From: Buxus sempervirens
Taxonomy: Eukaryota > Streptophyta > Magnoliopsida > Buxales > Buxaceae
Assembly (NCBI GenBank): GCA_947561395.2
Contig: OX387190.1
Span: forward strand, 11,154,858-11,218,857
Direction: 5' to 3'
DNA: 64,000 nt
Shown here: in pieces, positions 16,079 through 38,444 of the stretch
Position numbering within the stretch: position 1 is the stretch's first letter
Layout of the letters: the number at the start of each line of letters is the position of its first letter
Translations under genes and position numbers: made by a program
The notes under the pieces: model-generated
What the model saw: the letters and a program-made list of their open reading frames with translations, nothing else
Databases searched by the model: none
What the model was told of the DNA's origin: nothing

Positions 16079-16179
16079 TGTAGACACCCCAAATTGCACT
16101 AAAAATGAGAAAATAATTGAAAATATTAATTGGAATTTAAAACAGGCCAAAATTCATGAACATCAATAATTTAAGCCTG

Positions 16180-16284
16180 GACCGTAGTATATCTACCGGC
16201 TAAGCGCGCCCGAATTTTGAATACGGGCACGCAGCGCCCGTAATACATATACGGACATCGTGGGACCGTAAATCATTTACGGGC
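16180..16284. promoter_or_regulatory. Phased half-site array in TatP U3
   Basis: Eight 7-bp half-sites start at 16180, 16194, 16208, 16222, 16236, 16250, 16264 and 16278. Spacing is exactly 14 bp and orientation alternates (GACCGTA or GCCCGTA, then TACGGGC or TACGGAC), giving four dyads of 7-7-7 at a 28-bp period. It lies about 200 bp upstream of the TATA box. The second half-site is mutated (TACCGGC) but is TACGGGC in the 3' LTR (array 29,923-30,027). Confidence 0.88.
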
Positions 16285-16484
16285 ATTCTAGACTCGTGCG
16301 AGTTTTATTCTTCTCTCGATTTCTGAGCCTTATCTTTAGCCCAATATCCCTTTAAATGAGCGAATTATATATTTTATTCGTGCGAAATATCTTTGTGGAT
16401 AAAGGATAGGCATTATCTTGTATTTAACTCAAACTGAAACTCTATCTTGCCAAACCTTGGACCAACCATACCCCTGTGCTTGCC

Positions 16485-16492
16485 TATAAATA
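16485..16492 (+). promoter_or_regulatory. TATA box of TatP 5' LTR
   Basis: TATAAATA in the context TGCCTATAAATAGAGGCTCT, a near-ideal plant TATA box; the 3' LTR has the same at 30,228-30,235. The transcript would start about 30 bp downstream, near 16,520. Confidence 0.75.
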
Positions 16493-16586
16493 GAGGCTCT
16501 CTCCTCTAGCTAAGGGCCACGAAATTTTGAAGAATCAAAAGCTCCAAGAGAAGGAAAGGAATCCCTGCTGCTCTGCCTGCTCAATC

Positions 16587-16595
16587 CAGGTAAGT
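16587..16595 (+). promoter_or_regulatory. Conserved splice donor in the LTR
   Basis: CAG/GTAAGT, a perfect plant 5' splice site about 100 bp after the TATA box. It is present at the same place in the TatP 3' LTR (30,330), S1 (near 37,910), S2 (near 60,818) and, as CAG/GTAAG, in both TatM LTRs. A possible acceptor lies just before gag at 20,428. Confidence 0.55.
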
Positions 16596-17876
16596 CCCCT
16601 ATCCTTTTTTATTTTCTGTCTTCAATTCTAGAAGTAATAGGATCATCTCTATTGCTGTAGAATAAGGCCATATCTGTTTTGTATTCCTAAACCTGCCTCC
16701 AAGTACCTCAAGGGTCTCTCTAGCCGTAAAACGTGAAGAGAGAACTAAGGGAAAGGGGAACAGGTGGATCCCTAGAATAGAACCCCATATCTGTTTTTTC
16801 ATAGAATAAGGCCTTTGATTGTGTTTGTGTAACCAAACCTATCTCCAAGTACCTCAAGAGTCTCTCTAGCCGTAAAACGTGAAGAGAGAACTAGGGAAAA
16901 GGGGAACAGGTGGATCCGTAGGGTAGACCCCCATGTGTTCTAACTTGTGAGATGTGGTTGTTTTAAATATCCTGATCATGTTTTAATGCTTTTTATGATG
17001 AATCTGAATGACTAACATGAATCTATGATGTTTATAGCATGAGATCCCCTCTTTTTGACAAAATTTGGATTTTTGCCACTTTTGCACCTACAGCACTGTT
17101 TTCGTGATTTTTGTGATTTTAGGCTAGGATCTTGGATTTATCATGATCAATATGGTAGATCTGAATCCAGAAGCCTGAAAATAAATTCTAGGATTTCATG
17201 ATATGGTTTTTAAATTGTTTTTCATTATTAAGAGAAGACCTTACGGTCTAAATTCTCCCCTTTTGGTGTTCTTCATCAACGTGGGTATTTTTGGTTTTTA
17301 TTTTCTGATTTAACGTGAAATTTGGGCTTTATCTATATCCTGGACTATTCAAGTTCAATTTTGAAATATTTTATAAAATTCATATTTTTCTAGATTTCTA
17401 GAATTTAACTTGAAGCCAGATTTTTGGATTTTTCACTTTAAATTGATTTTATTTGATTTTATCTTAATTTTGTTTTGATCATGAAACCCTAGGAATGGTA
17501 TGATCATGTTTGATAGTTCTGGATCAATCAGACTATTCATATGAAAAAACCATATATTTTTGCCTTTTTTGTGATTTTGTGTGATTTTTATAGCAAGCTT
17601 TTTCCTTTATTTTAACATGAACAAATACCTGGCAACCACCTTTTGTGGATGAATAGGGGTGCCTAACACCTTCCCCTGTTCATAACTTAATCCCCTTACC
17701 CATCTCTGGTTGTTTTTTTAGGAGGGATATTTTGCCCTAAAATTTGCCTTTTGTGCTTATTTAATATTTTGGTGTCCATTCACACCTAAATTGAATGGTG
17801 GCGACTCTTTGTTTTATTTAATCCCGTGTGATGATTGAGGAAACCATTAAATTGATTTTTTTCCATGTCTCACAAC

Positions 17877-17895
17877 TGGCGACTCTGCTGGGGAC
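17877..17895 (+). other. Primer binding site of TatP
   Basis: TGGCGACTCTGCTGGGGAC, two bases after the LTR. This type of site is used by Tat/Ogre elements and is probably complementary to the 3' end of a tRNA-Arg; the tRNA was not checked. TatM has the identical site. Confidence 0.85.
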
Positions 17896-19095
17896 TTGTG
17901 GATTTGAGCCTTTTGGTGTTTAGTTCATGTTTTTGATTTTTTTGATTTGCTTGCTATTTTGTGTTCTTAAGCATGTTGAATATGTTTTAAATCTGAATTA
18001 TTGCTTAGGAATTCATGGGGGTAGAAACATGCTTAATTGTGATTTATAGGATTATTTCTACAAACATGCGTAGGGGAGGTCCGTTTTGCTAAACCATGCT
18101 TATTTCTTGCTATATTTTTATGATAGCATGTTTTAATTTTCAGCATGATCTCCATGATGATTTTGGGTGTATAACATGATCATATGTTTGCATGATAGAT
18201 GATTTTTTTATGAGCATGTTTTAGGTGCTATAGGATTGCTTTATTTACTTGTTTATTTTAAATATGCTTTCCTATTATGCCTTGGTTTGTTTATGCATGG
18301 CTGCGAAAAGAGTGGCAAGGGTTTGGGACGTTGTGAATGCACCCTATTTTTACAATGCACTGTGCACCTTTTACTTTTACACAGCCTACCCTTAACCTAT
18401 AGGAAGTTGAACCCGAATGTGTGTAGCTTGGCGCAACGAGGTTGATACTTCGGAAAGCGAAAGTGAAAACATTCACCTTAGAACTTTGAGCTAATGATGT
18501 GATGATAACGTGGATCTGGGATTCTGGTCATCACTAGGCTTGAGTGCTAAGTTGCCATTAAGCCAAAACCCAAAACCCCTACGCTTGAAGGTGGAGTTAC
18601 ACGTTTTTGGCTAAAGTATACAATTACGTGGGGATATGGGTTTGTATGATTGTGGGAAGACCGTGTGCATGGCTTACAAACCAGGGCATAATGCGGATAC
18701 CATATTGAAGGTAAACAAGGTAACAAGGTAATCCTATTGTTTTGCATTATTTTCATGTCATAGGGGTGTCATGGTACCTATTGGTTCGGGATAAAATTGG
18801 TCCCAAAATTTACATGTTTTTAAAATTGGTGCAGCCCATAGGAAGAGTCTCTAACTCTGTTTAGAATCAATCCTACTCGATGTTCATACAAGATTCAACC
18901 AAAGGGTACCAAATTCTTGAGTATGGTGTCAATTTGGAGGGTACATGTGCCCTCCCAAACATGGGTTTTAGTAAAAAGGCCAAGGTCCACTTTGGGACAG
19001 TTTAGAAGCTCTGTACTGGGTGAACCGTATGTTTGGATGAGCAATTAAAGTGATCAAACCACTAAAAACTGGAAAAATATAACAGGGTTCCGTAA
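17896..19095 (+). other. TatP leader, first part, with conserved non-coding block
   Basis: No open frame is shared with TatM, yet about 320 bp (18,408-18,725) is closely similar to the TatM leader (33,845-34,185, minus strand). The best-kept core is GTGTAGCTTGGCGCA and then CTTCGGAAAGCGAAAGTG. It also contains the line GCCAAAACCCAAAA and a CGCTTGAAGGTGGAG box. Conservation without coding suggests an RNA or DNA signal such as packaging, dimerisation or translation. Confidence 0.6.
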
Positions 19096-19228
19096 AACCG
19101 CATTTAGTACACGGGCTGGGCTTGCCCGTATTGGTTATACGGGCTAGGCTCGCCCGTGGATTGCATACGGTCACAGCTTGCTCGTAATTTGAATACGGGC
19201 AGGGCTGGACCGTACTGTGTATACGGTT
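19096..19228. promoter_or_regulatory. Phased half-site array in TatP leader
   Basis: Five dyads with first arms at 19096, 19124, 19152, 19180 and 19208 and second arms 14 bp later, the same 28-bp period and consensus (GCCCGTA-N7-TACGGGC) as in the LTR. The spacer sequences differ from those in the LTR, so this is not a simple recent copy of the U3 segment. Confidence 0.88.
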
Positions 19229-19399
19229 TTCTCTGAATATTCAACTTTAATCAGTTTTTTTTTTACTAAAATCTTCCTTTAAACCTGAAATAATGATGAA
19301 GGGAAACAAGTTTGAATAAAATGCTTCAAAAAAAAAAAACAAACAAACAAACAAACAAACAAAATAATTAAAAGAAAAAAAAATGTGAGAGAAAGGTTC

Positions 19400-20240
19400 C
19401 TAGGGCTTCTGCAAGCCTTTGAATTTCAGATTTTTTCAAAAACTCCTGGGCCCCTGAAAGCCTTTGAATTTCAGATTTTTCAAAATATCCCTGGGCCTCT
19501 GAAAGCCTTTGAATTTCAGATTTTTCAAAAAAATCCTCGGGCCTCTGAAAGCCTTTGAATTTCAGATTTTTCAAAAAAATCCTCGGGCCTCTGAAAGCCT
19601 TTGAATTTCAGATTTTTCAAAAAAATCCTTGGGCCTCTGAAAGCCTTTGAATTTCAGAACTTTTTGGCCTCTGAAAGCCTTTGAATTTCAGACTTTTTTC
19701 TTTTGGGCCTCTGAAAGCCTTTGAATTTCAGAACTTTTCCTTTTGGGCCTCTGAAAGTCTTTGAATTTCAGAACTTTTCCTTTTGGGCCTCTGAAAGCCT
19801 TTGAATTTCAGAACTTTTCCTTTTGGGCCTCTGAAAGCCTTTGAATTTCAGAACTTTTCCTTTTGGGCCTCTGAAAGCCTTTGAATTTCAGAACTTTTCC
19901 TTTTGGGCCTCTGAAAGCCTTTGAATTTCAGATCTTTTGGGCCTCTGAAAGCCTTTGAATTTCAGAACTTTTGGGCCTCTGAAAGCCTTTGAATTTCAGA
20001 CTTTTTTTCAAAATATCCCTGGGCCTCTGAAAGCCTTTGAATTTCAGACTTTCATCAAACTTCTGGGCCTCTGAAAGCCTCTGAATTTCAGACCTTTTCC
20101 AAAAACCCCCCGGGCCTCTGAAAGCCTCTGAATTTCAGACCTTTTCCAAAAACCCCCCGGGCCTCTGGAAGCCCTTGAATTTCAGACCTTTTTCAAAAAC
20201 CCCCCGGGCCTCTGAAAGCCTTTGAATTTCAGATCTTTCT
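19400..20240 (+). repeat. Minisatellite in TatP leader, about 20 copies
   Basis: Units of about 32-48 bp share GGGCCTCTGAAAGCCTTTGAATTTCAGA (split here: GGGCCTCTGAAAG, then CCTTTGAATTTCAGA). The core CTGAAA ... TTTCAG is an inverted repeat and could form a small hairpin in each unit. Unit length varies through T and A runs between cores. One copy of the sequence that forms the TatM array (GGAAGCCCTAGAATATTCC) lies directly after it at about 20,260. Confidence 0.9.
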
Positions 20241-20391
20241 CTCTTTTGTGGGACCTGTCGGAAGCCCTAGAATATTCCAACGATTCAAAAAAAAAAAAAA
20301 AAAAGGGAAGCAAATAAAGAAAAGAAACAAATCCAAACTCGTGTTCACCCAGCTTGCACATAGGCATTCTTAGGCATGTGAATGAGATTAA

Positions 20392-22122
20392 ATGGACACT
20401 GATATTTTTTCCTTTACCTTGTCGCCAGGTACTAATACACTTGCAATCATAGCTCCTGTAACCAGATCAAGAGCTCGAGCCATGAATCCCATTGAAGATG
20501 AAGTTGACGCTCCTCATCCAGATGTTGTTCTACTCCAAGAACAAGTGGCAGGACTAGCCCGAATGCTAGAGAACATACTGTCAGTACAGGCCCAACAAGT
20601 GCAGGCCCAACAAATGCAGGCCCAGAACCAGGCATCCACATCCAACCCTGCACCTCCACCCCAAGTCAACGTCCCACCTCCAGTGCAACCAACTCCTGAA
20701 CCCGTCTATGAACCCACCCCTGAACCTATACTGACCAGGGATGAGACAACTGAATCAAACAAGGAAAAGGAAAGGATAAGGGAAGAGGTTGAAAGAAAGT
20801 TCATGCATAAGCTAGAAATGATCCAAGATGAACTAAGGGAAGTCAAAGGGGTAAACAACTTTGGAGGCACCAATTTTGAAGACCTGTGCCTATACCCCAA
20901 TGTTAACCTGCCGGTTAAGTTTAAGTGCCCAGACTTGGACAAGTATGATGGCACTGGTTGCCCCATGAGCCACCTAAAGTTGTATTGCGGTGCCCTATGC
21001 CAGTTCGGGCAGGATGAAGGTATTTTGATCCAACTTTTTCAAAGGAGCCTGACTGGAACCGCATTAAGATGGTTCGCCACTCTGGACCATGGAAAGATCA
21101 AAAGATGGAAGGACCTAGCCGATGCCTTCCTGGCTCAATACCGATTCAATTCAGAGATCATGCCAGATAGGTACGACGTCATGAGAATGAGCAAAGGAAG
21201 GGAAGAGACTGTCAGGCAATATGCCAAGAGGTGGAGGGAGACGGCCTCCCAGGTCAGGCCACCCATGCTAGAACAGGAAATGATTTCTACTTTCATAAGC
21301 ACTTTGGGTCAACCATTCTACAGCCACTTGGTGGGTCAGACCACCACTAATTTTGCAGCTTTGGTTCAGGTGGCTGACCGAATTGAGGATGGAATAAGGT
21401 CAGGTAAGATAATTGACCACTCTGCCATGGTTAGCCAGCAGGACCCCAACCTAAAGAAAGGAAGCGGGACAAAAAAGAATGGGAACAAGAAGGAGGGTGA
21501 AGTAAACATGGTACAGCCACCATCTGGCCCTAACAAGCCCATACAAATCAACGTACCTGCACATTTTCCTACCCCACCAGCGTCATCCCAGGCCCCCATG
21601 AGGGTTAATGTTCCAGCAGCACCTTCAGACCAAAGAAGGGTTTTTACCAAAGAGGAAAAGGATGCCTATTTTGCAGCAAGAAGAAATAGGGTTTTCACCC
21701 CTATTCCAATGACTCCCTCTCAATTGCTGCCCACTTTATTGCAAGGAGGGTATATCACCTTAAGAGAACCTAATCCGAATGCATCTAAGGGGAGAAATTT
21801 TGACCCCTCCACCACTTGTGATTACCATATGGGTGCACCTGGGCACCCTACAGACAAGTGCTGGCCTTTGAAACATGCCATTCAAGACCTACTAGACCAG
21901 AATACCTTGTCTTTCAATACAGGGGCTCCCAATCCTCCAAGAACCGATATTGGACAAAACCCACTGCCCCAGCATCACGGGGCAGGCCCATCTAATGTCA
22001 TAGGAATCATCTCTTCTGACAAAATAACCTTTGACCCATCCCAATTAATTGCTCCCATAGGGACAACGGTCAAAGTATACTTTGACAGGAGAAGTGAAGG
22101 CAAAGAAATAAATATGATTTAA
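20392..22122 (+). CDS. TatP gag polyprotein
   Basis: Forms the virus-like particle. The frame is open from 20,392, but I prefer the ATG at 20,482, the one kept in TatM (31,942) and the first after the candidate splice acceptor. A Gln/Pro-rich N-terminus (QAQQVQAQQMQAQ) and a charged helix are followed by the gag capsid domain (LKLYCGALCQFGQDEGI, LFQRSLTGTALRWFATLDHG, VRQYAKRWRETASQV; about residues 185-300 of the open frame) and a zinc knuckle CDYHMGAPGHPTDKC (about residues 475-489). It ends at a TAA (22,120-22,122). The same frame continues beyond it with sequence homologous to TatM, where no stop exists here, so the TAA is a nonsense mutation and not the natural gag end. Confidence 0.9.
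   Translation: MDTDIFSFTLSPGTNTLAIIAPVTRSRARAMNPIEDEVDAPHPDVVLLQEQVAGLARMLENILSVQAQQVQAQQMQAQNQASTSNPAPPPQVNVPPPVQPTPEPVYEPTPEPILTRDETTESNKEKERIREEVERKFMHKLEMIQDELREVKGVNNFGGTNFEDLCLYPNVNLPVKFKCPDLDKYDGTGCPMSHLKLYCGALCQFGQDEGILIQLFQRSLTGTALRWFATLDHGKIKRWKDLADAFLAQYRFNSEIMPDRYDVMRMSKGREETVRQYAKRWRETASQVRPPMLEQEMISTFISTLGQPFYSHLVGQTTTNFAALVQVADRIEDGIRSGKIIDHSAMVSQQDPNLKKGSGTKKNGNKKEGEVNMVQPPSGPNKPIQINVPAHFPTPPASSQAPMRVNVPAAPSDQRRVFTKEEKDAYFAARRNRVFTPIPMTPSQLLPTLLQGGYITLREPNPNASKGRNFDPSTTCDYHMGAPGHPTDKCWPLKHAIQDLLDQNTLSFNTGAPNPPRTDIGQNPLPQHHGAGPSNVIGIISSDKITFDPSQLIAPIGTTVKVYFDRRSEGKEINMI
20421..20430 (+). promoter_or_regulatory. Candidate splice acceptor before TatP gag
   Basis: TTTTTTCCTTTACCTTGTCGCCAG ends at 20,428 (pyrimidine-rich, then CAG), 53 bp before the conserved gag ATG at 20,482. 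TatM has CAACCCAG at the aligned place. With the LTR donor it would define an intron of about 3.8 kb that removes primer site, leader dyads and minisatellite. The acceptor is only moderately good. Confidence 0.35.
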
Positions 22123-24102
22123 AAGGGGAATGATAGTGCTGCAAAGAACATTAGCTCATCTTTGGACCGGGTCTCATCCCTCATGGCCCAGATGAACATC
22201 GCCAAGCCACCTTTGGTCATTAATTACAATCCATCCACTTTTACTCCGCCCGTTCAGTCTAAGCCACCATTGGTCATAAATTGTGACCCCTTTAGTGCCT
22301 CTGTCACTTCTGCAAACCCCCAACCAAAACAACTTCCTCCATTGGTTGTTAATATTCCTATTACTCAGACTTCCATCGCCAAGCCCAAACTTCCCCCATT
22401 GGTGGTGAATGTCCCCAAGCCTTCCTACTCTGAATCGGCTGTACCATGGAACTACAGTGAGACGTTTACCACTACATGCCCTGCAGCTGAAAGCAAGGAA
22501 GAAGTGAACCTCATGATGAGGTCAGGAAAATGTGTAGGGGTGGAAGAAAAACAAAAAGAAACAGAGAAGGGGAAAGAAGAAGAAAAAAATAAAGGAAAGG
22601 CCAAGGTAGGGGAAGAAGTCCCTCAGGTAACTAACAGTGAGGCTGCTGACCTCATTAAGGTAATAAAAAAGAGTGAGTTCAATGTCATTGAGCAGTTGAA
22701 CAAAGTCCCTGCCCAGATCTCAATATTGGGCCTATTGTTAAATTCAGAAAAACATAGGGACTCCTTGTTAAGGATACTCCAGGGGGCCCATGTGCCTAAA
22801 AACATTGAACCAGACCAATTAGGCTGGATGGTTGGTCAAATTTTATCTCATAATGTCATAACCTTTTCTGAAACTGAAATTAGTCCGGCAGGGTACCATC
22901 ATGTGGATCCTTTGCACATTGCTGTACTCAGTCAGGGTTGCATGATAGCCCGAGTCTTGATTGACAATGGGTCGGCCCTCAATGTCTGCCCTTTAGTAAC
23001 CTTTGTTAAGCTCAATCTGGAGCGAAACAAAATAAAACAAAACGAAAGAATTATAAGAGCATTTGACAGCTCTAAAACACACTCCCTAGGGGAGGTTGAA
23101 CTGCCGGTCACAATTGGACCGTATATTTTCAAAATCACATTTGAAGTGATGGATATACCTGCAGCCTTCAACCTACTCCTAGGAAGGCCGTGGATTCATA
23201 CAGCTAGGGCTATACCATCTACCCTCCACCAAAGAGTCAAGTACATTAGAGGGCAAAAGGTGATTACCGTCCTGGCCGAAAACTTGGTTCCCCCTATGTG
23301 GTCCCCTGATGTACCCTGTATTAACACGGAAATGACGGCAGATAAGATGGCATTTCACTCTTTTCAATTTGAAGCTGTGAATTATATACCTGGGGGGTAT
23401 CAGCAAAAAGAAGGAAAGTGGACCTGTGCTGAGAGAATGGTCAAGAATGTGCTAGAAAAGTACCATTTTCACCCTGGAAAAGGTCTGGGGGTTAACCTAC
23501 AAAGAAGGATAGAACCAGTACAGGTTAAGAAGATGGTTCACAGAGCAGGATTGGGGTCTAAGCCAAGGAAATGGAGAAGACAGGGGCAGATAGAAGCTAT
23601 GAAATTCCCGCACATCAGGGAAACTTTTCATAAGCTGTCTCACATGATTCAGCTGTCTCCTCCTGAGGATCAGGCCAAACCCCCATACTACAATGTTAAC
23701 CCATTCCAGAAACCTAAATCCTCAACCATACAACCATATGTACCACCTCCTCAAGCATCTGGTGGGCCTGGGCCACAGACAGAACAAAAGCAGGATTTTT
23801 CTGAGGACGTAGGGGCATTCTTTGCCATGACAGAAGGCAACCAAGAAAAAGTAGCGGAGGAGCTACCTTTTATTGATTGGGCTGCAGTAGAAGTTCCATC
23901 TGGAACTGGCCCTACAAAAGAAACAGGCGATGCAACTCACCCAGTACTGGTGATCTCTGATGCAGACCATGAGTTTGAAGAGCAGGCTTGTATCCCTGCC
24001 CCAGATTCTTTCATTTTGAATAATTGGGAGGAAACTCCCCTTACTTTTGAAGCCGCGTTTGTTTGGCAAACAGACATGGCTTCCAAAAAAAAACTCCATT
24101 AG
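22123..24102 (+). CDS. TatP aspartic protease and G-patch region
   Basis: In-frame continuation of gag after the TAA; the first ATG is at 22,162. It contains a Pro-rich spacer, a basic and Glu/Lys-rich segment, the protease core MIARVLIDNGSALNVCPL (Asp codon at 22,963) and LLGRPWIHTARAIPST, then a G-patch (KYHFHPGKGLGVNLQ, 23,461-23,520, and GLGSKPRKW). The protease cleaves the polyprotein; the role of the G-patch in plant elements is unknown, though G-patch modules elsewhere bind RNA. It ends ten bases after an A9 run (24,085-24,093). The pol frame overlaps it by 40 bases in the -1 phase. Confidence 0.9.
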   Translation, partial: KGNDSAAKNISSSLDRVSSLMAQMNIAKPPLVINYNPSTFTPPVQSKPPLVINCDPFSASVTSANPQPKQLPPLVVNIPITQTSIAKPKLPPLVVNVPKPSYSESAVPWNYSETFTTTCPAAESKEEVNLMMRSGKCVGVEEKQKETEKGKEEEKNKGKAKVGEEVPQVTNSEAADLIKVIKKSEFNVIEQLNKVPAQISILGLLLNSEKHRDSLLRILQGAHVPKNIEPDQLGWMVGQILSHNVITFSETEISPAGYHHVDPLHIAVLSQGCMIARVLIDNGSALNVCPLVTFVKLNLERNKIKQNERIIRAFDSSKTHSLGEVELPVTIGPYIFKITFEVMDIPAAFNLLLGRPWIHTARAIPSTLHQRVKYIRGQKVITVLAENLVPPMWSPDVPCINTEMTADKMAFHSFQFEAVNYIPGGYQQKEGKWTCAERMVKNVLEKYHFHPGKGLGVNLQRRIEPVQVKKMVHRAGLGSKPRKWRRQGQIEAMKFPHIRETFHKLSHMIQLSPPEDQAKPPYYNVNPFQKPKSSTIQPYVPPPQASGGPGPQTEQKQDFSEDVGAFFAMTEGNQEKVAEELPFIDWAAVEVPSGTGPTKETGDATHPVLVISDADHEFEEQACIPAPDSFILNNWEETPLTFEAAFVWQTDMASKKKLH

Positions 24103-25466
24103 TGGAATGCCCTTTTCCTGAAGGTTTTAATGAGCCTTCGTCTTTAGGGAAAGATTTTGTAGAAGGCTCTCAAATAACACAAAAAGATTTTTCAGTTTTT
24201 TTTAGAAAAGATAAAGTTTTCAAAAAGGTCCAAACCATTTATGAACCATATAAGCAAACGGAATTGGATCAGGATGAATATGACTTCGACCTTGAGCTCG
24301 ACTTTGACCTAATGGGGGTTGAAGAAGAGACCGAGGACGAAGAAGACGACGTTCCAAAAGAAATCACATATCAATTAGAGCGTCATGAAAAGGGGGTCCA
24401 ACCCAATATTGAAGAGACCATATCAATCAACCTAGGGACCGAAGATGACCCAAAAATAGTGAAGATTGGGGTATGCCTATCTGAGGTATAGCGGGATGAA
24501 ATGATACGATTTTTGGCTGATTATGAAGATGTGTTTGCATGGTCGTATCGGGATATGCCAGGGTTAGAAACAGATATGGTGGTGCACAGGCTACCCATTC
24601 TACCAGATGCCAAGCCAGTTAAGCAGAAACTGAGAAGGTTAAAACCTGAATGGACGCTAAAGGTCAAAGATGAAGTGGTTAAGCAATTCCAAGCCGGATT
24701 CTTAGCAGTTTCCACATACCCCGAATGGCTTGCAAATATAGTGCCAGTGCCAAAGAAGGATGGAAAGGTCAGAATGTGCGTAGATTATAGAGATTTGAAT
24801 AAGGCAAGTCCAAAGGATGATTTTCCACTTCCACATATAGACATCTTGGTGGATAACACCGCAATACATAGCCTGTTCTCATTCATGGACGGGTTTTCTG
24901 GGCACAATCAGATTAAGATGGCTAAGGAAAACCAAGAGAAGACAGCCTTTATCACACCTTGGGGTACCTTCCACTACACTGTCATGCCATTTGGACTTAA
25001 GAACGCTGGGGCAACCTACCAGAGGGCCATGACAGCCTTATTCCATGATATGATCCATAAGGAGATGGAGGTTTATGTGGATGATATGATAGCCAAATCA
25101 TGTGAAGAAGAAGACCACTTGATCAACTTGAAGAAGGTATTTGACCGGCTTAGGAAATACAGTCTAAGGCTTAACCCTGCGAAATGTGTCTTTGGGGCCA
25201 CATCAGGAAAATTGTTGGGCTTTATAGTAAGCAGAAGGGGAATTGAGATTGACCCAGCTAAAGCTAAAGCCATCATTGAAATGCCATCACCTAGAACCGA
25301 GAGGGAAGTTCGGGGTTTTCTTGGAAGGATTCAGTACATAAGCCGGTTCATAGCACAGCTCACCGCTATCTGTGAACCAATTTTCAAACTTCTAAGAAAG
25401 AATAACCCGACAGTCTGGAATAATGATTGCCAAGAAGCCTTTGACACAATAAAGGAGTATTATTGA
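24063..25466 (+). pseudogene. TatP reverse transcriptase and start of RNase H
   Basis: The pol frame enters across the A9 run in the -1 phase relative to protease. An acidic stretch (DLELDFDLMGVEEETEDEEDD) leads to a TAG at 24,489-24,491, where the same frame resumes at once. Polymerase motifs: VPVPKKDGKVRMCVDYRDLN, FSFMDGFSGHNQIKM, TVMPFGLKNAGATYQ, catalytic YVDDM (25,074-25,088). The frame is lost by a single-base deletion near 25,461, just before the NPPVLVPPTP joint to RNase H. Apart from these two lesions all motifs are intact, including the PFGL that is altered in TatM. Confidence 0.92.
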
Positions 25467-27688
25467 ACCCACCTGTGTTAGTACCACCCACTCCAGGAAG
25501 ACCATTGATTCTATACTTGTCAGTTTTGGAGACATCAATGGGGTGTGTCTTAGGACAGTATGACGATACAGGCAGAAAGGAGAGGGCGATTTACTACCTG
25601 AGTAAGAAATTTACAGAATATGAAGCAAAATATTCCCCTCTAGAAAAGACTTGTTGTGCTTTAGTATGGGCAACTCAGAGACTAAGGCACTATTTCCTTA
25701 GTCATTCTACCTTATTGATATCCCGCATGGACCCTTTGAAGTATCTATTTGAGAAACTGGCTTTAACTGGCAGAACAGCAAAGTGGCAGTTGTTACTCTC
25801 TGAATTTGACCTCACCTATATCACACAGAAGGCCATTAAGGGTCAAGCCATTGCAGATCACTTGGCTGCACACCCTTTACCAGAATACCAACCCTTAAAG
25901 ACCAACTTCCCTGATGAGGCAATCCTATTTGCTGAAGAGGAAGAAGGTGAAAGCTCATGGCAAATGTTTTTTGATGGGGCCGCCAATATGAATGGAAATG
26001 GAATAGGGGCTGTATTGATCAAGCCAGATGGGGCACATATCCCAATCGCAGTGAAGTTAAGGTTTCAATGCACGAACAATATAGCAGAGTATGAAGCATG
26101 CATAATTGGGTTGCAAGCAGCCTTAGACCATGAAGTAGAGGAACTTGACGTATATGGGGATTCGAGTCTTATCATCTTCCAAACAACTGGTGAATGGAAA
26201 ACCAAGGATCACAAATTGATCCCCTATCACCAGTATTTGGAAGAAATAAGCAATAAATTTACTCGAATTTCCTTCAATTATATGCCAAGGGCCAAAAATC
26301 AGTTTGCAGATGCTCTAGCAACATTGGCTTCAATGGTCAGTATGCCAGAAGGTGTTGATATTAGACCATTGGAAATTGAAGTCAGAGATGAACCAGCTTA
26401 CTGCCTTGTTCTAGAAGAAACCCCAGAAGAAGAAGTACCATGGTTTCAAGACATTAAGAATTTCCTAAATGATCGGAGCTTACCAGAAAATGTCACCTCT
26501 ACAGAGAAAAGAACAATACAGAGGCTGGCAGGACAATTCTTACTAAGTGGTGGGCAGTTGTACAAAAGATCACACAATGATATACTACTTAGATGTGTTG
26601 CAAAGACTGAGTCAGAAAGGATAGTTGAAACGGTACATGGAGGAGTGTGTGGACCCCATATGAATGGGCATATGCTTGCCAAGAAGATTCTGCGATTGGG
26701 ATATTACTGGTCGACTATGGAGCATGATTGCTATATGCACGTTAAAAGGTGTCATTTATGCCAAGTGTATGCGGATAACAAGAATGCACCCCCAAGTGAA
26801 TTACACAGTATGACATCTCCGTGGCCTTTTTCTATGTGGGGTATAGATGTCATTGGAATGATCTCTCCAAAGGCATCAAATGGACATAGGTTTATACTTG
26901 TAGCAATTGATTACTTCACCAAGTGGGTAGAGGCAGCTTCATATGCAAACATTACAAGTAGCCATGTTCTTAAGTTTTTAAAGCACAACATCATTTGTCG
27001 CTATGGTTTGCCAAGTGCCATAGTAACAGACAATGCTTCAAACCTTAAGAACAAAGACATGAGGAAGATGTGTGAACAATTTCAGATTACCCACCACAAG
27101 TCAGCGCCTTACAGACCAAAGATGAATGGGGCAGTGGAAGCAGCGAATAAGAATATAAAGAAGATTATTCAAAAAATGGTAGTGAGTTTTAAAGATTGGC
27201 ATGAAATGCTGCCACTTGCTCTACATGCTTACAGAACCTCAATACGGACTTCTACAGGGGCAACCCCATACTCCTTAGTCTATGGAATGGAAGCAGTTCT
27301 ACCAGTGGAAGTGGAAATACCTTCACTAAGAGTGCTAATGGAAGCTGAATTAGAAGAAGCTGAATGGATACAATCAAGACATGATCAACTCAATTTAATA
27401 GAAGAAAAACGTTTGAAGGCACTTAGTCATGGCCAATTATATCGAAAGAGGATGGCCAGGGCTTACAATAAAAAGGTGAAGCCCAGAACTTTCCAAGAAG
27501 GAAATTTGGTATTAAAGAAGATTTTACCCTTTTTGGAAGACCCTCGTGGAAAATTCAAACCAAATTGGGAAGGACCTTATGTGGTCAAGAAAGTCCTATC
27601 AGGGGGTGCTCTCATCTTAACAGAAATGGATGGGAAGGATTTTCCTGAGCCAATTAACTCTGATGCAGTAAAGAGATATTTTCCATGA
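25463..27688 (+). CDS. TatP RNase H, second RNase H and integrase
   Basis: One open frame of 741 codons. Order: Ty3-type RNase H (LYLSVLETSMGCVLGQYD, with serine in place of the first catalytic aspartate, and EKTCCALVWATQRLRHYF); connector; archaeal-type RNase H with all four acids (MFFDGAANMNG, NIAEYEAC, VYGDSSLII, NQFADALATL; about 25,960-26,330). Integrase follows, with HHCC zinc finger (26,635-26,780), DDE residues in WGIDVIGM, VTDNASNL and KMNGAVEAANK, and the GPY module (NWEGPYVVKKV). It ends NSDAVKRYFP before a TGA. The first residues belong to the reverse transcriptase joint and are read from an incidental ATG; the real protein is a continuation of the frame before the 1-bp deletion. 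Confidence 0.92.
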   Translation: MNPPVLVPPTPGRPLILYLSVLETSMGCVLGQYDDTGRKERAIYYLSKKFTEYEAKYSPLEKTCCALVWATQRLRHYFLSHSTLLISRMDPLKYLFEKLALTGRTAKWQLLLSEFDLTYITQKAIKGQAIADHLAAHPLPEYQPLKTNFPDEAILFAEEEEGESSWQMFFDGAANMNGNGIGAVLIKPDGAHIPIAVKLRFQCTNNIAEYEACIIGLQAALDHEVEELDVYGDSSLIIFQTTGEWKTKDHKLIPYHQYLEEISNKFTRISFNYMPRAKNQFADALATLASMVSMPEGVDIRPLEIEVRDEPAYCLVLEETPEEEVPWFQDIKNFLNDRSLPENVTSTEKRTIQRLAGQFLLSGGQLYKRSHNDILLRCVAKTESERIVETVHGGVCGPHMNGHMLAKKILRLGYYWSTMEHDCYMHVKRCHLCQVYADNKNAPPSELHSMTSPWPFSMWGIDVIGMISPKASNGHRFILVAIDYFTKWVEAASYANITSSHVLKFLKHNIICRYGLPSAIVTDNASNLKNKDMRKMCEQFQITHHKSAPYRPKMNGAVEAANKNIKKIIQKMVVSFKDWHEMLPLALHAYRTSIRTSTGATPYSLVYGMEAVLPVEVEIPSLRVLMEAELEEAEWIQSRHDQLNLIEEKRLKALSHGQLYRKRMARAYNKKVKPRTFQEGNLVLKKILPFLEDPRGKFKPNWEGPYVVKKVLSGGALILTEMDGKDFPEPINSDAVKRYFP

Positions 27689-28637: not shown

Positions 28638-28671
<34 letters not shown>

Positions 28672-29807: not shown

Positions 29808-29821
29808 AAAGAGGGGGCAGC
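29808..29821 (+). other. Polypurine tract of TatP
   Basis: AAAGAGGGGGCAGC immediately before the 3' LTR start at 29,822; primer for plus-strand DNA synthesis. Confidence 0.88.
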
Positions 29822-31607
29822 TATAGACACCCCAAATTGCACTAAAAATGAGAAAATAATTGAAAATATTAATTGGAATTTAAAACAGGCCAAAATTCAT
29901 GAACATCAATAATTTAAGCCTGGACCGTAGTATATCTACGGGCTAAGCGCGCCCGAATTTTGAATACGGGCACGCAGCGCCCGTAATACATATACGGACA
30001 TCGTGGGACCGTAAATCATTTACGGGCATTCTAGACTCGTGCGAGTTTTATTCTTCTCTCGATTTCTGAGCCTTATCTTTAGCCCAATATCCCTTTAAAT
30101 GAGCGAATTATATATTTTATTCGTGCGAAATATCTTTGTGGATAAAAGATAGGCATTATCTTGTATTTAACTCAAACTGAAACTCTATCTTGCCAAACCT
30201 TGGACCAACCATACCCCTGTGCTTGCCTATAAATAGAGGCTCTCTCCTCTAGCTAAGGGCCACGAAATTTTGAAGAATCAAAAGCTCCAAGAGAAGGAAA
30301 GGAATCCCTGCTGCTCTGCCTGCTCAATCCAGGTAAGTCCCCTATCCTTTTTTTATTTTCTGTCTTCAATTCTAGAAGTAATAGGATCATCTCTATTGCT
30401 GTAGAATAAGGCCATATCTATTTTGTATTCCTAAACCTGCCTCCAAGTACCTCAAGGGTCTCTCTAGCCGTAAAACGTGAAGAGAGAACTAAGGGAAAGG
30501 GGAACAGGTGGATCCCTAGAATAGAACCCCATATCTGTTTTTTCATAGAATAAGGCCTTTGATTGTGTTTGTGTAACCAAACCTATCTCCAAGTACCTCA
30601 AGAGTCTCTCTAGCCGTAAAACGTGAAGAGAGAACTAGGGAAAAGGGGAACAGGTGGATCCGTAGGGTAGACCCCCATGTGCTCTAACTTGTGAGATGTG
30701 GTTGTTTTAAATATCCTGATCATGTTTTAATGCTTTTTATGATGAATCTGAATGAATAACATGAATCTATGATGTTTATAGCATGAGATCCCCTCTTTTT
30801 GACAAAATTTGGATTTTTGCCACTTTTGCACCTACAACACTGTTTTCGTGATTTTTGTGATTTTAGGCTAGGATCTTGGATTTATCATGATCAATATGGT
30901 AGATCTGAATCCAGAAGCCTGAAAATAAATTCTAGGATTTCATGATATGGTTTTTAAATTGTTTTTCATTATTGAGAGAAGACCCTACGGTCTAAATTCT
31001 CCCCTTTTGGTGTTCTTCATCAACGTGGGTATTTTTGGTTTTTATTTTCTGATTTAACGTGAAATTTGGGCTTTATCTATATCCTGGACTATTCAAATTC
31101 AATTTTGAAATATTTTATAAAATTCATATTTTTCTAGATTTCTAGAATTTGACTTGAAGCCAGATTTTTGGATTTTTCACTTTAAATTGATTTTATTTGA
31201 TTTTATCTTAATTTTGTTTTGATCATGAAACCCTAGGAATGTTATGATCATGTTTGATAGTTCTGGATCAATCAGACTATTCATATGAAAAAACCTTTTT
31301 TTTTTCCTTTTTTGTGATTTTTATAGCAAGCTTTTTCCTTTATTTTAACATGAACAAATACCTGGCAACCACCTTGTGTGGATGAATAGGGGTGCCTAAC
31401 ACCTTCCCCTGTTCATAACTTAATCCCCTTACCCATCTCTGGTTGTTTTTTTAGGAGGGATATTTTGCCCTAAAATTTGCCTTTTGTGCTTATTTAATAT
31501 TTTGGTGTCCATTCACACCTAAATTGAATGGTGGCGACTCTTTGTTTTATTTAATCCCGTGTGATGATTGAGGAAACCATTAAATTGATTTTTTTCCAGG
31601 TCTCACA
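29822..31607 (+). repeat. TatP 3' LTR
   Basis: 1786 bp, nearly identical to 16079-17874. It starts TATAGACACC, so the terminal TG is changed to TA. The half-site array is at 29,923-30,027, TATAAATA at 30,228-30,235 and the splice donor at 30,330. A short deletion in the T-rich stretch near 31,300 accounts for most of the length difference. Confidence 0.92.
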
Positions 31608-31942: not shown

Positions 31943-32172
31943 GGCTCTTGCTTTGGATCTGGTCACGGGAGCAATGACTGCAAATAAGTGCACCTGGGTT
32001 GAAAGTAAATGTACCTGACGAAAAAATGAACAGAACATGTTAGTTTCCATTTAACTTGAGTCACACCCCTATATATGTAAACCAGTAGGTTAGGTGAACA
32101 CCAATCCAGATTTTTTTTTGTTTTTTTTGTTTTTTTTTGTTTTTGTTTTTTTTGTTGTTTTGATTTTGTGTT

Positions 32173-33238
32173 GGAATATTCTAGGGCTTCCAAGGGTCCC
32201 AAATTTTTTTTTTGATTTGATTGATAAAAATAATCAACCAAGGTTTTCATGGAATATTCTAGGGCTTCCAAGGGTCCCAATTTTTTTTGATTTGATTGAT
32301 AAAAATAACCAACCAAGGTTTTCATGGAATATTCTAGGGCTTCCAAGGGTCCCAATTTTTTTTTTGATTTGATTGATAAAAATAACCAACCAAGGTTTTC
32401 ATGGAATATTCTAGGGCTTCCAAGTATCCCACAAATGTTTTGATTTGATTGATAAAAATAACCAACCAAAGGTTTCTTGGAATATTCTAGGGCTTCCAAG
32501 TATCCCACAAATGTTTTGATTTGATTGATAAAAATAACCAACCAAAGGTTTCTTGGAATATTCTAGGGCTTCCAAGTATCCCACAAATGTTTTGATTTGA
32601 TTGATAAAAATAACCAACCAAAGGTTTCTTGGAATATTCTAGGGCTTCCAAGTGTCCCACAAATGTTTTGATTTGATTGATAAAAATAACCAACCAAAGG
32701 TTTCTCGGAATATTCTAGGGCTTCCAAGTGTCCCACAAATGTTTTGATTTGATTGATAAAAATAACCAACCAAAGGTTTCTTGGAATATTCTAGGGCTTC
32801 CAAGTATCCCACAAATGTTTTGATTTGATTGATAAAAATAACCAACCAAAGGTTTCTTGGAATATTCTAGGGCTTCCAAGTGTCCCACAAATGTTTTGAT
32901 TTGATTGATAAAAATAACCAACCAAAGGTTTCTCGGAATATTCTATGGCTTCCAAGTGTCCCACAAATGTTTTGATTTGATTGATAAAAATAACCAACCA
33001 AAGGTTTCTTGGAATATTCTAGGGCTTCCAAGTATCCCACAAATGTTTTGATTTGATTGATAAAAATAACCAACCAAAGGTTTCTTGGAATATTCTAGGG
33101 CTTCCAAGTATCCCACAAATGTTTTGATTTGATTGATAAAAATAACCAACCAAAGGTTTCTTGGAATATTCTAGGGCTTCCAAGTGTCCCACAAATGTTT
33201 TGATTTGATTGATAAAAATAACCAACCAAAGGTTTCTT
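32173..33238 (-). repeat. 76-bp minisatellite in TatM leader, 14 copies
   Basis: Copies of GGAATATTCTAGGGCTTCC (plus strand) start at 32173, 32251, 32326, 32403, 32479 and then every 76 bp to 33163. The copies nearest gag have CAAGGGTCCC and variable T runs; the other copies have CAAGTATCCC or CAAGTGTCCC. Within these, a three-unit (228-bp) pattern of variants appears twice between 32,555 and 33,010. Since 76 is not a multiple of 3, the short open frames seen across it are artefacts. Confidence 0.93.
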
Positions 33239-33553
33239 TTTTTTTATTTTTCTTCCTTCAAATTTGCTGAATTTTATCAGTTTTCAAGTTCCAAAGTTTG
33301 ACTGACACATGTTTGAGTTGAGTTGGTGTCAAAAAATATGACACCTTGGTTTCCTCTTTGATTTTCAAACTTAGGTTAAATCCTGAAAGAATATTTTATT
33401 TTATTCTTTTTTTATTATTTTTTTGTTTTTGATTTTGTATTTTTGGGAACATTTCTTATGTTCTTTTCGGGGTGCCTAAGGATTATCCATAGTGTTTTAG
33501 GCATTTTATTCTGAAAATTTGGGCTGAAAAGCCAATTTGTGCATTTTTTGAAT

Positions 33554-33695
33554 GTATCCGGTATACTATACCGGATAAGAATATGTCTTATTGTATCCGG
33601 TCACCCTAACCGGATATACGCATATGCCTTTGTATCCGGAAATACATACCGGATATGAATAGAATTGTTATTAACCGGCCTGAGTTGCCGGTTAT
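33554..33695. promoter_or_regulatory. Phased dyad array in TatM leader
   Basis: GTATCCGG starts at 33554, 33593 and 33632, with CCGGATAA or CCGGATAT exactly 17 bp later each time. A diverged fourth dyad (TTAACCGG at 33671, CCGGTTAT at 33688) keeps the 39-bp period and 17-bp arm distance. The pattern is the same as in the TatM LTR, but spacer sequences differ. Confidence 0.88.
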
Positions 33696-35209
33696 TGCCG
33701 AAACGGCCCTTTTTGGCTCATTTTTTTCACCCGATTAGTTTTTTTTCATTCCCAATTAATGTTCACCTTAATTTGTCCTTCAAAACTTGCCCCAAATTGG
33801 GCTTGGACATCATACTTGCAAAATTCTCTAAATTTAGGAAAAGAACATGGCTTTACCTTGCCCCCTTGTATTACCTTCATTCAATATGGTATTCACATTA
33901 TACCTTGGCCTGTAAAACATGCAAACGGCCTTCCCACATTTACACCCAATTCCCCAAACGCAATTGTGTGCTTTTAGCCGAAAACGTGTTTCTCCACCTT
34001 CAAGCGTATGGTTTTTGGGTTTTGGCTTAATTGGCAACTTAGAACTCAAGTCTAGTGATGCCCGGAATCGAATCACAGATCCCATTGTCATCACATCATT
34101 GACCCAAATTCTAAGGTAAATGTTTTCACTTTCGCTTTCCGAAGTCACGACCTCGGTGCGCCAAGCTACACACATTCATAGTTCAACTTCCTAATAGGTA
34201 AAGGGTAGGCTGTACAAATTGTTTCAAGTGCTCAAGTGCAATTTTAAATTGTGGTAACATTCACAACGTCCCAGCCCCTTGCCACTCTTTTTCGTAGCCA
34301 TGCATTCAATTTCAAGCCAAGGTACATATGACAAAAATAATGAAGCTAAATACAAGCAAGCAAGCACCAAAACAACTAAATATGCACAAAAAATATTACA
34401 TGCCCAAAAAGTGGTATACAAAACATGTTATTTGTACAAACAACAATTAAACCATGGAAGCATGCTTGAAACCCAAAAGCATTCCCAAAATTCCAGATTT
34501 TCATGTTCTTTTTCATGCTCAAAGTGTACCATTTCTACCCAAATTGAAGCCTAAAATTTTAGCACTACTTGGCATGGTTCAAAAGTGTTTCAATGAGGTT
34601 AAACATGCTTAAAAACCCCCAAATATACACTGAAATTTCCAGATTTTTTTTCCTTCAATTGGATGCTCAAGTGACATGGTTTTATGCCCAAATCCAAGCC
34701 TAAAACCCAGAAGCTAACAATATGACATAAAAAGCTTTTAGCTTGGGAAACATATGCTTGAAAATCCCCAAAATTCCCACTAAGCATTTCAGATTTTTTT
34801 TTTCATTGTTTTCATGCTCAACTTATGTCATTCCATACCCCCAAGTTCAAATCATGGCCCAAAACAACCATTAAGCACAAAAAGTATTATTCATGGGAAA
34901 CATGCTTGAATACTCAAAATTTACACCAATTTTTCAGATTTTGAAAATTTCTTTTTCATGGCATAACAACTTAAATCAAAGCATGTCATCACAAAACACA
35001 TCCAAATCATGTTTCAAAATAGGCTTCTTCTAGACACATTTCTAGCCAACATCAAGCCACACATACATGCTTTTGATCCATACAAATTTCTAAGCATCCT
35101 AATCTGATTTGAAATATAACAATATGCACAAACGAAGTAAACAAAATAGCAAGCATTCAAAAGTAGAGAAAAGCATGAACAATTAAACAAAAATGGCTTA
35201 AATCCACAA
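33696..35209 (-). other. TatM leader with conserved non-coding block
   Basis: 33,845-34,185 corresponds to TatP 18,408-18,725 (core GTGTAGCTTGGCGCA and CTTCGGAAAGCGAAAGTG on the minus strand). The rest is AT-rich, with several dispersed, diverged copies of a segment containing TTTCAGATTTT and GGGAAACATGCTTGAA (34,440-34,960). No shared open frame. Confidence 0.55.
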
Positions 35210-35228
35210 GTCCCCAGCAGAGTCGCCA
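35210..35228 (-). other. Primer binding site of TatM
   Basis: On the minus strand TGGCGACTCTGCTGGGGAC, the same 19 bases as in TatP, two bases from the LTR edge. Confidence 0.88.
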
Positions 35229-35230
35229 GT

Positions 35231-37536
35231 TGTGAGACATGGGAAAAAATCACCGGAATGATCATCCCTCCGTCAACACATGGGTTCAACGCAAAAACAG
35301 GAGAGTCGCCACCATTCATGATTTTGGGGTGAGAATGGACACCAAAGAGTTCAAAATAAGTAAAAAGTGAAAAAAAGAAACATTCTAGGATAAAAATAAC
35401 CCTACTTGAAAATCAAATCCAGAGATGGGTAAGGGGATTAGATTATGAACGGGGGAAGGTGTTAGGCACCCCCATTCATCCACACGAAGTGGTTGCCAAA
35501 GTGTATGTTCATGCGAAAACAAAGTAAGAAAGCTTGCTAAAAATCATGAGAAACCTTGAAAAAGGTCAAATGTATGATATCTTCACATGAGAATCCAAAT
35601 GAATTTTGGGTTCTCCTTTTATGTCAATATCATTTCTGAAACATTAAAGAGGTGGAAATCAAAGCACAAGTTGCTCAAAACCAAGTTAAATCGAATCCGG
35701 GAAGTTTGGTAAAAAGTATGCCATTTGTCTTGAAATCATTCAAATACAATTTTAAATCAAATCAAACCAAATCCATTTGAAAGATTATAATAAATAAGAG
35801 TCTCATGCAAAATTTCACTTCATTCCGATGAAAATCATAGGAGTTATGCTCCTTTGAAGTTGCTGCTGGGGATTTTTAAAAGTGGTAAGTGGGCAATTTT
35901 GGAAAATTGTCTAGAAAAATACACTACATAAAAGTCCACGAAATTTGGTGTGATTGAAGTCTGTAGAGCCATATTTCAAAAGAAACTAGCCTCATATAAA
36001 AATTCCTTCGGATGTGCCTTGGGTGGTCTCCCGAACAGGCCCTGAAGATCACAGATTTATCCAGAAAAGTACAAATGAACCGTTCTGAGTAAATCGGCTA
36101 CCAATAATTCAAATGGAATCCAAAAATTATGAAATCAGCTGGATTTGAAAATAGACTCATAAAGGAGTACTCAGAAACAAAAATCACTCGAATCGGACTT
36201 AAAACGAACACATGGCGGTCCGTCGAAGTGACAAGTTCTATACTTGAACCTAAACTGTCTACTTAACTTCAACAGAGAGGTGTCTAAAATCTGCTCGATG
36301 GAAATTCATGAAATTTGGTGGACATAAACTAGACAGCCTCACCTTTCCCATGGTTTTAAAATTACTCCAAAATTCATCCGGACGATGAAGTTATGGGCGT
36401 CCGAAGTAAGGGTACAGGTGCTGTCCAGTTAGGCCCACTTTTGAAGAAAATCAAATCCGAAAATTTATAAAGTGTGTGAGATTCATGTGAGATGAATCCA
36501 AAACCTTTGAAAAACATTTAAAAACACTCCAGAATTTGATTTAGGCCATTTATTGGAGATTTATCACAATGAATGTAATAAATCCCCAAATGTGAGCCTA
36601 TTCACCAAAAAAGTGTAATATGTGTGCAAGAGTGAAAAACCAAGCAAGATTAATACAACAACATATCATGCATATGGATTCAACAAAATAGGTTCTAGCA
36701 TAGCCTAGGGTTCCGTTCCATTATCGTTTCCCTCTGTTCTCTCTCCCCGTTAAACATGGATATTCGAAATAATCAAGGGTACTTTGATTATGGAACGGTT
36801 TTCAAACATTTAAAAGCCTTATGCTACATGGGTTCTAGCACTAGGGTCAATCCCCAGTCTCGTTTCTCCTAGATCCGCCTTCACGTTTTACGGCTAGGGG
36901 AGTCTTGAGATACTTTGAGCCGGGGAAGGATTTCCACACATACAAACAAGGCTTTACACTACAGAAAGGTAGAAGAAGAGATCTAGATCTAGGAATGTAA
37001 AGACAGAAAATAAAAAGAAAAGTTGAGGCTTACCTGAGTTCTGGAGGCGATTCCGCAGCGGTTTTCTTCTTCTCTTGGAGTTCTTCTTTGCGAGAATTCA
37101 AAACAAGAGTTGAGTGCCCTTTGCTCAAGGAGGAGGCTCCTATTCATAGGCAAAGGCTAAGGTCATTGGTAGACACAACTTAATGTCTAGAACCCCTCCA
37201 ACCTTAACCCTAAGGTCATTTCCGAGATTTCCCCTCATTTAATGAGGGACATGATGGTAACAAGTGATTTCTCTCGGAAAACCCTAATTTTGAGCAAACT
37301 TAATGTATCCGGTATATCAGACCGGATAAAAAAGGGTCTTAAGGTATCCGGTACATGGTACCGGATACACTAAGGCTCACATGTATCCGGTATGAGTATC
37401 CGGATACAGGAAGGAGTACTTGTATCCGGATTGAGTATCCGGATACAGGTAAAAGTTTATTTTCTTCAAATTCTGTGCTGGCTTTCAAGGAGATAATGAT
37501 TTTTGATGATTGTTTGTGCAATTTGGGGTGTCTACA
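35231..37536 (-). repeat. TatM 5' LTR
   Basis: 2306 bp, the partner of 4393-6710. It contains the clean version of the dyad array (GTATCCGG at 37305, 37344, 37383 and 37422; partner arms 17 bp later; strict 39-bp period), a TATGAATA box (37,141-37,148) and a CAG/GTAAG donor near 37,031. It ends exactly at the ATATC duplication (37537-37541). Confidence 0.92.
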
Positions 37537-38444
37537 ATATCACAGATTATAGCACATGGGGGTCTACCTTATGGATCCACCTATTCTCTTTTCCCCTAGC
37601 TCTCTCTTCACGTTTTATGGCTAAAGAGGAATCTTGAGGTACTTGGAGGTAGGTTTGGGAATACAAACACAAACAAGAGGCCGTATTCTACAAAAAAAAG
37701 AAGAACAGATTATAGGGTTCTATTCTAAGAATCCACCTGTTCCCCTTTCCCCTAGCTCTCTCTTCACGTTTTACGGCTAGAGAGGGGTCTTGAGGTACTT
37801 AGAGGCAGGTTTGGGGATGCAAAAATAAGAAGGCCTTATTCTACAGCAATGGAGAAAATTAGACTATTTTTGAAATTAAAAACAGAAAATAAAAGAGAAA
37901 AGAGACTTACCTGGATTGAGAAAGCAGAAAAGCAGGGATTCCCTTCTTCACTTGGAGCTCTTCAGGCTTCAGATTTGTAGCCCTTTGCTTGAGGAGAGGC
38001 CCTCTATTTATAGGCAAACCCAGGGGCATGGTTGGTCCAAGGGATATGCCAAGATAGAGTTCCAGAAGATTCCAGATTGAGTTAAAAACAGAGATAATGC
38101 CAATCCATTGAACCATAGAGGATAAACAAGAGGATTTGAATGGATAAACAAGAGGATTTGAATCTCCCAAAGAGAGATTTGAGTACAGATAAGGCTCAGA
38201 AATCGAGAAAGGATAAATTCGCTCAAAAAACCCACGCCCGTATATGAATTACGGTCGTGCCGTGACCGTATTAATAATACGGGCACAGCATGACCGTATA
38301 TGCATTACGGGCAAAACTGGACCGTAGATAAATTACGGGCACTTCATGTTTGACCAGAATTTTCACCTTTTTGACTTGTTTCACATCCCAATTACATATT
38401 TTCAGTTATCTTCTCATTTTGTAGTGCAATTTGGGGTGTCTACA
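37537..38444 (-). repeat. Upper part of solo LTR S1
   Basis: U3, promoter and first U5 part of S1: the LTR start lies at 38,444, phased half-sites start at 38236, 38250, 38264, 38278, 38292, 38306, 38320 and 38334, TATAAATA lies at 38,005-38,012 (minus), the donor near 37,910, and two CTAGCCGTAAAACGTGAAG-type boxes at about 37,610 and 37,780. Confidence 0.85.

Follow-up and report, generated by a model that had tools for sequence, protein, structure and literature searches.

What are the evenly spaced inverted repeats that recur in the retrotransposons nested in this stretch of DNA, and what might recognise them? We refer to the whole stretch analysed, 64,000 nucleotides of contig OX387190.1 (positions 11,154,858 to 11,218,857), as the window; it forms part of the 676.5-Mb genome used for genome-wide counts. 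The window holds two retrotransposons with long terminal repeats (LTRs), element P on the plus strand and element Q on the minus strand, together with related LTRs, two of which (S1 and S2) carry arrays of the P type. The arrays are real and constrained as dyads, that is, as pairs of inverted half-sites, and they probably represent rows of dimer sites, in the promoters and leaders of Ogre/Tat-type LTR retrotransposons, for a sequence-specific DNA-binding protein. They lie in the unique 3' (U3) regions and in the leaders, as follows.

16180..16284, plus strand: P U3 array of the 5' LTR, eight alternating half-sites at a 14-bp step (four dyads, 7-7-7, period 28)
29923..30027, plus strand: P U3 array of the 3' LTR
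19096..19228, plus strand: P leader array, ten half-sites at a 14-bp step, the outermost two weak
38236..38340, minus strand: U3 array of S1, a related LTR
60526..60630, plus strand: U3 array of S2, a related solo-like LTR
37304..37447, minus strand: Q U3 array of the 5' LTR, TGTATCCGG-9-CCGGATACA-12, four dyads, period 39
6465..6621, minus strand: Q U3 array of the 3' LTR, lengthened by a 13-bp tandem duplication
33553..33657, minus strand: Q leader array, three dyads with the 9/12 spacing of the Q U3 arrays

The five arrays built from GCCCGTA and TACGGGC (both P LTRs, the P leader, S1 and S2) are all present where the initial annotation, made from the letters of the window, had placed them, with alternating orientation and a half-site every 14 bp. 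They match an eight-half-site template at 49-52 of 56 letters, compared with a maximum of 31 in 60 simulated order-2 Markov sequences of 64 kb. The annotation had also described the arms of S1 and S2 as diverged; S1, at 52 of 56 letters, equals the P 3' LTR and has not diverged, and S2 stands at 50. The P leader array keeps the 14-bp step, but with its weak outermost half-sites only eight of the ten pass at one mismatch, and the supposed invariance of this step holds for the five arrays of the window but not for other copies, some of which have one 13-bp step. The arrays start approximately 100 bp (P) and 90 bp (Q) from the LTR start, which is nearly identical in both elements. The 13-bp duplication (6522-6543) is a tandem duplication of a half-site found in the Q 3' LTR only, and the Q LTR pair differs there.

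Dyad geometry and half-sites across the genome

Genome-wide counts were made with exact arms only and are lower bounds, and the spacing breakdowns come from the first 50 places listed. GCCCGTA-N7-TACGGGC occurs at at least 11,266 places in the genome, and its reversed control at none. With a gap of 8-38 bp the P arms were found at at least 7,913 places (control 49), 47 of the 50 listed having N35, the next register; with a gap of 8-34 bp there were only at least 261 (control 49). Of the 50 listed for the latter, 36 fell short of the next register by one base and three by two; 11 were other. Some of these 36 places are identical copies; the base had been lost between dyads in 32 and within a dyad in three, with one tie. 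The Q arms gave a similar picture, with GTATCCGG-N0-30-CCGGATAC at at least 20,703 places (control 2; N9 in 48 of the 50 listed) and GTATCCGG-N10-30-CCGGATAC at only at least 238, where 41 of the 50 listed are a single form with overlapping neighbouring dyads. A dyad search with the gap left free returned 9 bp for all 57 Q dyads and 7 bp for 52 of 53 P dyads, at loci that had been preselected by an exact dyad; ties went to the gap expected, and the 16 P loci included six from the off-register list. Together the exact P dyads and about 20,500 exact Q dyads (gap 0-9) make the arrays abundant and precisely defined candidate targets.

The LTR start shared by these elements has 8,721 exact copies, both strands together. 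Forty were hand-picked along this list regardless of arrays, all on C1 and with most already examined places omitted. Dyads were recognised by rule in 37 of them, 23 being Q-type, seven P-type and seven of a further type, T. On inspection two of the three failures (L142 and L157) resemble decayed T-type LTRs and the third (L150) is a variant, V, whose array has a 28-bp period and the half-site GACCGCA (48 of 56 letters matched, versus 39 with GCCCGTA). Arrays are general in the sampled LTR group. When gaps were left free in these unselected LTRs, all 24 P dyads had 7 bp and 89 of 91 Q dyads had 9 bp; T dyads, scored with 5-bp arms (n = 29), had a gap of 11 in 23 cases and 12 in six, equivalent to 7-7-7 or 7-8-7. 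Across 22 of the 23 unselected Q copies, each position of the Q core TATCCG was kept in 167-175 of 176 cases. Free spacing in other copies, which the initial annotation had associated with repeats decaying without function, was found neither in the genome-wide counts nor in the LTR samples: spacing is near-fixed, not absolute, and one-base losses occur, mostly between dyads. One of the sampled places (L134:1-621) has a second LTR start 268 bp inside a P-type LTR and then a Q array, the two array types adjoining.

The half-sites had also been called family-specific, and those of the Q, T and V families do differ, but a family R, with no match of at least 300 bp to the LTRs of the window, has the half-site of P. 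Between P, V and T the half-site forms a graded series (GNCCGTA, GACCGCA, AACCGCA), with a 21-bp dyad common to all. Two relatives of Q (L089 and L076) carry TGTATCCGA, with G to A at position 9, in six and seven of their eight half-sites respectively, and retain the 9/12 spacing. Half-sites change in concert between families, and the dyad geometry stays near-fixed. One R LTR (L090:4800-5004) has two sub-arrays about 100 bp apart, the gap holding other GC-rich palindromes, e.g. GGGACACGCGTCCC.

Constraint on the arms and position at the promoter

Arms are far more conserved than spacers in both P and Q, contrary to the annotation's alternative that the two might not differ. Per-site diversity in the P U3, taken from 11 copies (14 minus three near-duplicates), is 0.138 in the arms, 0.451 in the spacers and 0.298 in the flanks (column tests p 7e-9 and 7e-6). 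For Q it is 0.108 in the arms and 0.42 and 0.51 in the two spacers of six copies, where TATCC is invariant in 48 of 48 half-sites, and 0.128 against 0.34 and 0.30 in 22 of the 23 unselected copies. The contrast in four P leaders is 0.063 versus 0.158. Across nine LTRs, CpGs were retained in 67 of 72 cases in the arms, 113 of 160 in other LTR sequence and 14 of 36 in the spacers, the arm figure being consistent with constraint. Indels are about fourfold rarer in the array (0.42 per 100 bp per pair) than upstream (1.85) or downstream (1.67), and two of the four array indels are whole 28-bp units; many indels are shared by descent.

The arrays also occupy a defined position relative to the predicted promoters.

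16484..16492, plus strand: P TATA box CTATAAATA, the U3 array lying approximately 200 bp upstream
37141..37149, minus strand: Q TATA-like sequence CTATGAATA, the U3 array lying approximately 150 bp upstream

P, Q and R each have a TATA box beyond the U3 array (at approximately 406, 389 and 799 within the respective LTR), and T and a further family, U, have one as well. Of the 40 unselected LTR starts, 35 have a TATA motif downstream of the dyads. The U3 arrays are thus situated as LTR enhancers are, within U3 and upstream of the core promoter. An earlier reading of the R TATA box as antisense was dropped once the sense strand was read. Both P and Q have a CAG/GTAAG-like donor about 110 bp after the TATA box, and in Q an acceptor-like signal stands before gag; judging from these splice-like signals, the leader array may lie inside a 5'-leader intron.

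Possible readers of the arrays

We propose that each dyad would be read by a dimer, because spacing within dyads is stricter than spacing between them, and that adjacent dimers would probably cooperate, their binding setting or protecting transcription of the element. Several observations weigh against this proposal. Position 2 of the P half-site is free (diversity 0.48, compared with 0.05-0.14 at the other six positions). In T the contrast is modest, ten copies giving 0.171 in the 7-bp arms, 0.246 in the spacers and 0.258 elsewhere (0.121 in the outer 5 bp of the arms), and its dyads are present without a regular period. A shortened step occurs in four of the seven unselected P-type LTRs (L133, L134, L135 and L153), as one 27-bp dyad step per LTR, that of L134 being deduced from a 55-bp double step; the other three are in full register. 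Copies of a family share descent, so that column tests and indel counts are non-independent, and nearly all copies examined come from one chromosome, C1.

Two explanations dispense with a DNA-binding reader. The initial annotation had left the choice between a DNA-binding protein and a row of RNA hairpins, and of these DNA half-sites are favoured. Hairpins in the genomic RNA, serving dimerisation, packaging or processing, would account for the complementary arms and for arrays in both U3 and leader, which both fall within that RNA. Pairing and covariation give this some weak encouragement (31 of 500 shuffles reach the score of the former, 30 that of the latter), as does position 2, which agrees in 57 of 100 distinct dyads against 46.8 expected (p 0.019); separated by type, however, the agreement is 36 of 71 in P-type dyads (expected 31, p 0.13) and 21 of 29 in R-type dyads (expected 21.8). 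Stem cells are paired at 86.5% versus 85.2% after shuffling, two of 28 pairs have changed on both sides against a shuffled mean of 1.7, and the position-2 pair is unpaired in 16 of 36 cells. The compensatory base changes expected of a structured RNA do not clearly exceed the shuffled level in the dyad stems, and the leader array is perhaps intronic. Recognition of half-sites fits better than pairing because one position per arm varies freely, and we consider hairpins very improbable. That the arrays are tandem repeats decaying without function is scarcely credible: 28-bp units are indeed gained and lost whole (L083 and L089), and Q has its 13-bp duplication, but arms, spacing and CpGs are conserved, and homogenisation alone cannot explain the P arms because the units share arms and not spacers.

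If the arrays are read by a protein, as we favour, the reader may be a host factor or the product of an extra open reading frame (ORF) of the elements themselves, and the data do not decide between these. The ORF concerned lies in Q.

7313..8212, plus strand: Q antisense extra ORF, 299 codons stop to stop, a distant DUF7745/plant mobile domain relative and candidate reader

Its domain match is weak (DUF7745, E 0.06), no relative was found in the protein database at E 0.001, and its single-sequence structure model is poor (mean pLDDT 50.4), with only a long helix usable. A relative with two stops in a P-type copy (L088) is 72% identical to it, at a dN/dS of approximately 0.06 that is rough, dS being saturated. 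A further ORF (L075), which we infer to belong to the R-type element, follows an R-type LTR on the same strand after approximately 2 kb. It matches DUF7745 (1.7e-9) and the plant mobile domain (1.7e-8, at 34.5 bits slightly below the 34.9 cutoff) and is 34% identical to the Q ORF (range 32-34%). Transposase_28 was not among the domain matches of the Q and L075 ORFs. The P element of the window gave no extra-ORF match by tblastn, nor was one detected at E 1e-5 at the expected place in any of four further copies (one P-type, three Q-type). Judged by these sequences, similarity between ORFs is not matched by similarity of the motifs. According to published accounts, 57% of Ogre elements have such an ORF with the plant mobile domain and 23% of Retand elements one with Transposase_28 (PMC6317226; PMC11963269), the function of these ORFs being described as unknown (PMC11963269); one plant-mobile-domain clade is Gypsy-encoded, and the function of the domain is called undetermined in the same account (PMC5418596).

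It is a substantial, if tentative, possibility that the arrays are bound by a resident dimeric plant transcription factor which drives transcription from the LTR, in the way that host factors act at other plant LTRs, different families using different factors. The U3 arrays precede TATA boxes, as described above for P, Q, R, T, U and the unselected LTR starts; one half-site serves two dissimilar LTR families, P and R, whose extra ORFs are distantly related; and in all four further copies the expected place lacked an extra-ORF match. The exact P dyads examined (47 of the 50 listed) nevertheless lie in these elements, host promoters as such not having been surveyed: 32 have an LTR start of these families upstream (six of them paired with the wrong LTR start and aligning as R), 10 more align as R, four have the R spacing pattern and one is unassigned. 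Long half-sites in strictly phased arrays are also, to our knowledge, unusual for host promoters. Somewhat doubtful, in our judgement, is an element-encoded reader, in which the DUF7745/plant mobile domain protein would bind the arrays of its own family and activate or protect the element, as VANC does for VANDAL and TnpA for CACTA transposons. The domain matches of the R-type ORF, with the 34% identity of the Q ORF to it, and the low if rough dN/dS between the Q and L088 ORFs speak for such a protein, and the long helix of the weak single-sequence model could serve dimerisation. In addition, the plant mobile domain proteins MAIN and MAIL1 are required, directly or indirectly, for expression of a set of genes that share a promoter motif (PMC7156037, PMC9899485), present in 25 of 26 (PMC7156037). 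On the other side, 72% identity between the Q and P-type ORFs goes with different motifs, R has the P motif despite an ORF only 32-34% identical to that of Q, and neither the four further copies nor the P element of the window yielded an ORF match.

A more specific proposal is that of a self-recognition code. The extra-ORF plant-mobile-domain protein of each family would bind its own U3 and leader array as dimers and switch on or protect that family; half-site and reader would change together, splitting the families into recognition groups, and copies without the ORF would use a reader supplied in trans. We think this unlikely. If it were true, it would constitute a VANC-like system in LTR retrotransposons, and the plant-mobile-domain relatives of the host would have a DNA-reading ancestry. 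If instead a host factor reads the arrays, they would still illustrate how a group of plant retrotransposons preserves a recognisable promoter amid rapid evolution of the remaining U3.

Known systems and the elements of the window

A limited search of the open literature (titles and abstract starts) returned no description of arrays of this kind in LTR retrotransposons. In plant LTR retrotransposons such as Tnt1, U3 enhancer repeats are repeated motifs upstream of the core promoter. The present arrays differ from these in their inverted dyads, near-constant spacing, recurrence in the leader and concerted change of the half-site between families. The VANC system of VANDAL transposons, to which the initial annotation had likened the arrays, can be kept as an analogy only. 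As in VANDAL Mutator-like elements (MULEs), dense arrays of short motifs occupy non-coding parts of a mobile element, and a variant motif in a related subfamily is present at many of its sites at once (PMC5735166). VANC21 motifs, however, are described as all facing one way, and they belong to a DNA transposon, an Arabidopsis VANDAL (PMC5735166); here we found LTRs, gag, reverse transcriptase (RT) and integrase in place of a MULE-type DNA transposon encoding VANC, orientation flips with every half-site, the alternating dyads have a near-fixed spacing, and the reader is only a candidate. The subterminal repeats of CACTA (En/Spm) transposons likewise consist of repeated motifs that differ between families, some being described as stem-loops, and are recognised there by the DNA-binding TNPA (PMC2613891). 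They belong to the ends of transposons with CACTA terminal repeats and a transposase (PMC2613891), whereas the present arrays lie in U3 and leader of an LTR element, and the retroelement structure found, with LTRs and RT, is not that of a DNA transposon with terminal inverted repeats. A further comparison is with the Ogre and Retand elements that have extra ORFs: P shares their domain order, and an ORF of this kind is present in Q and its relatives. The accounts of these ORFs, as far as their text was available, name no DNA target (PMC6317226; PMC11963269), and the present arrays are a candidate for one.

The LTRs and coding frames of the window are these.

16078..17874, plus strand: element P 5' LTR
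29821..31607, plus strand: element P 3' LTR, 98.4% identical to the 5' LTR
20392..27688, plus strand: P gag-pol frames, with gag, a G-patch-bearing frame, RT, RNase H, RVT_3 (second RNase H-like) and integrase
35231..37537, minus strand: element Q 5' LTR
4393..6711, minus strand: element Q 3' LTR, 97.8% identical to the 5' LTR
60423-62111, plus strand: S2, a related solo-like LTR

P lies within the gag region of Q, in the opposite orientation, and Q in turn within a further LTR, S1, whose array marks the start of that LTR on the minus strand. The P domains run RVT_1, RT_RNaseH, RVT_3 and integrase, with the second RNase H between RNase H and integrase. An RT, an RNase H and a second (archaeal-type) RNase H before the integrase are a feature of the Ogre or Retand subclade of Ty3/gypsy Tat elements (PMC6317226), and by its predicted domains P fits this group; because of this fit, the domain order by itself would point to a plant host. 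No match to the P integrase/RNase H frame was found in viral contigs. Seventy stretches of viral contigs contain the dyad, at one place each, and were taken for chance.

Other repeats accompany the arrays. The P leader has tandem repeats at 19398-20238 with periods of 40, 47 and 92 bp, which contain the inverted pair TCTGAAA...TTTCAGA, and the Q leader has 14 copies of a 76-bp unit at 32171-33238, each unit containing TTGGAA...TTCCAA. A block with CTCTCTAGCCGTAAAACGTGAAGAGAG twice occupies approximately positions 637-811 of the P LTR and is among its slower-evolving parts; similar text is also found in the Q and T LTRs, and S1 carries a 142-bp duplication in the region of this block (37531-37828). 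Positions 63727-64000 (and L095) hold the end of one more related minus-strand LTR, whose start was not found within 3 kb beyond the window. At L088 a P-type LTR has internal sequence on both flanks, a tandem LTR arrangement. Finally, at C1:3441494-3462059 and in similar pairs, several Q-type LTR starts lie approximately 20 kb apart with identical array spacers, which suggests very long elements.

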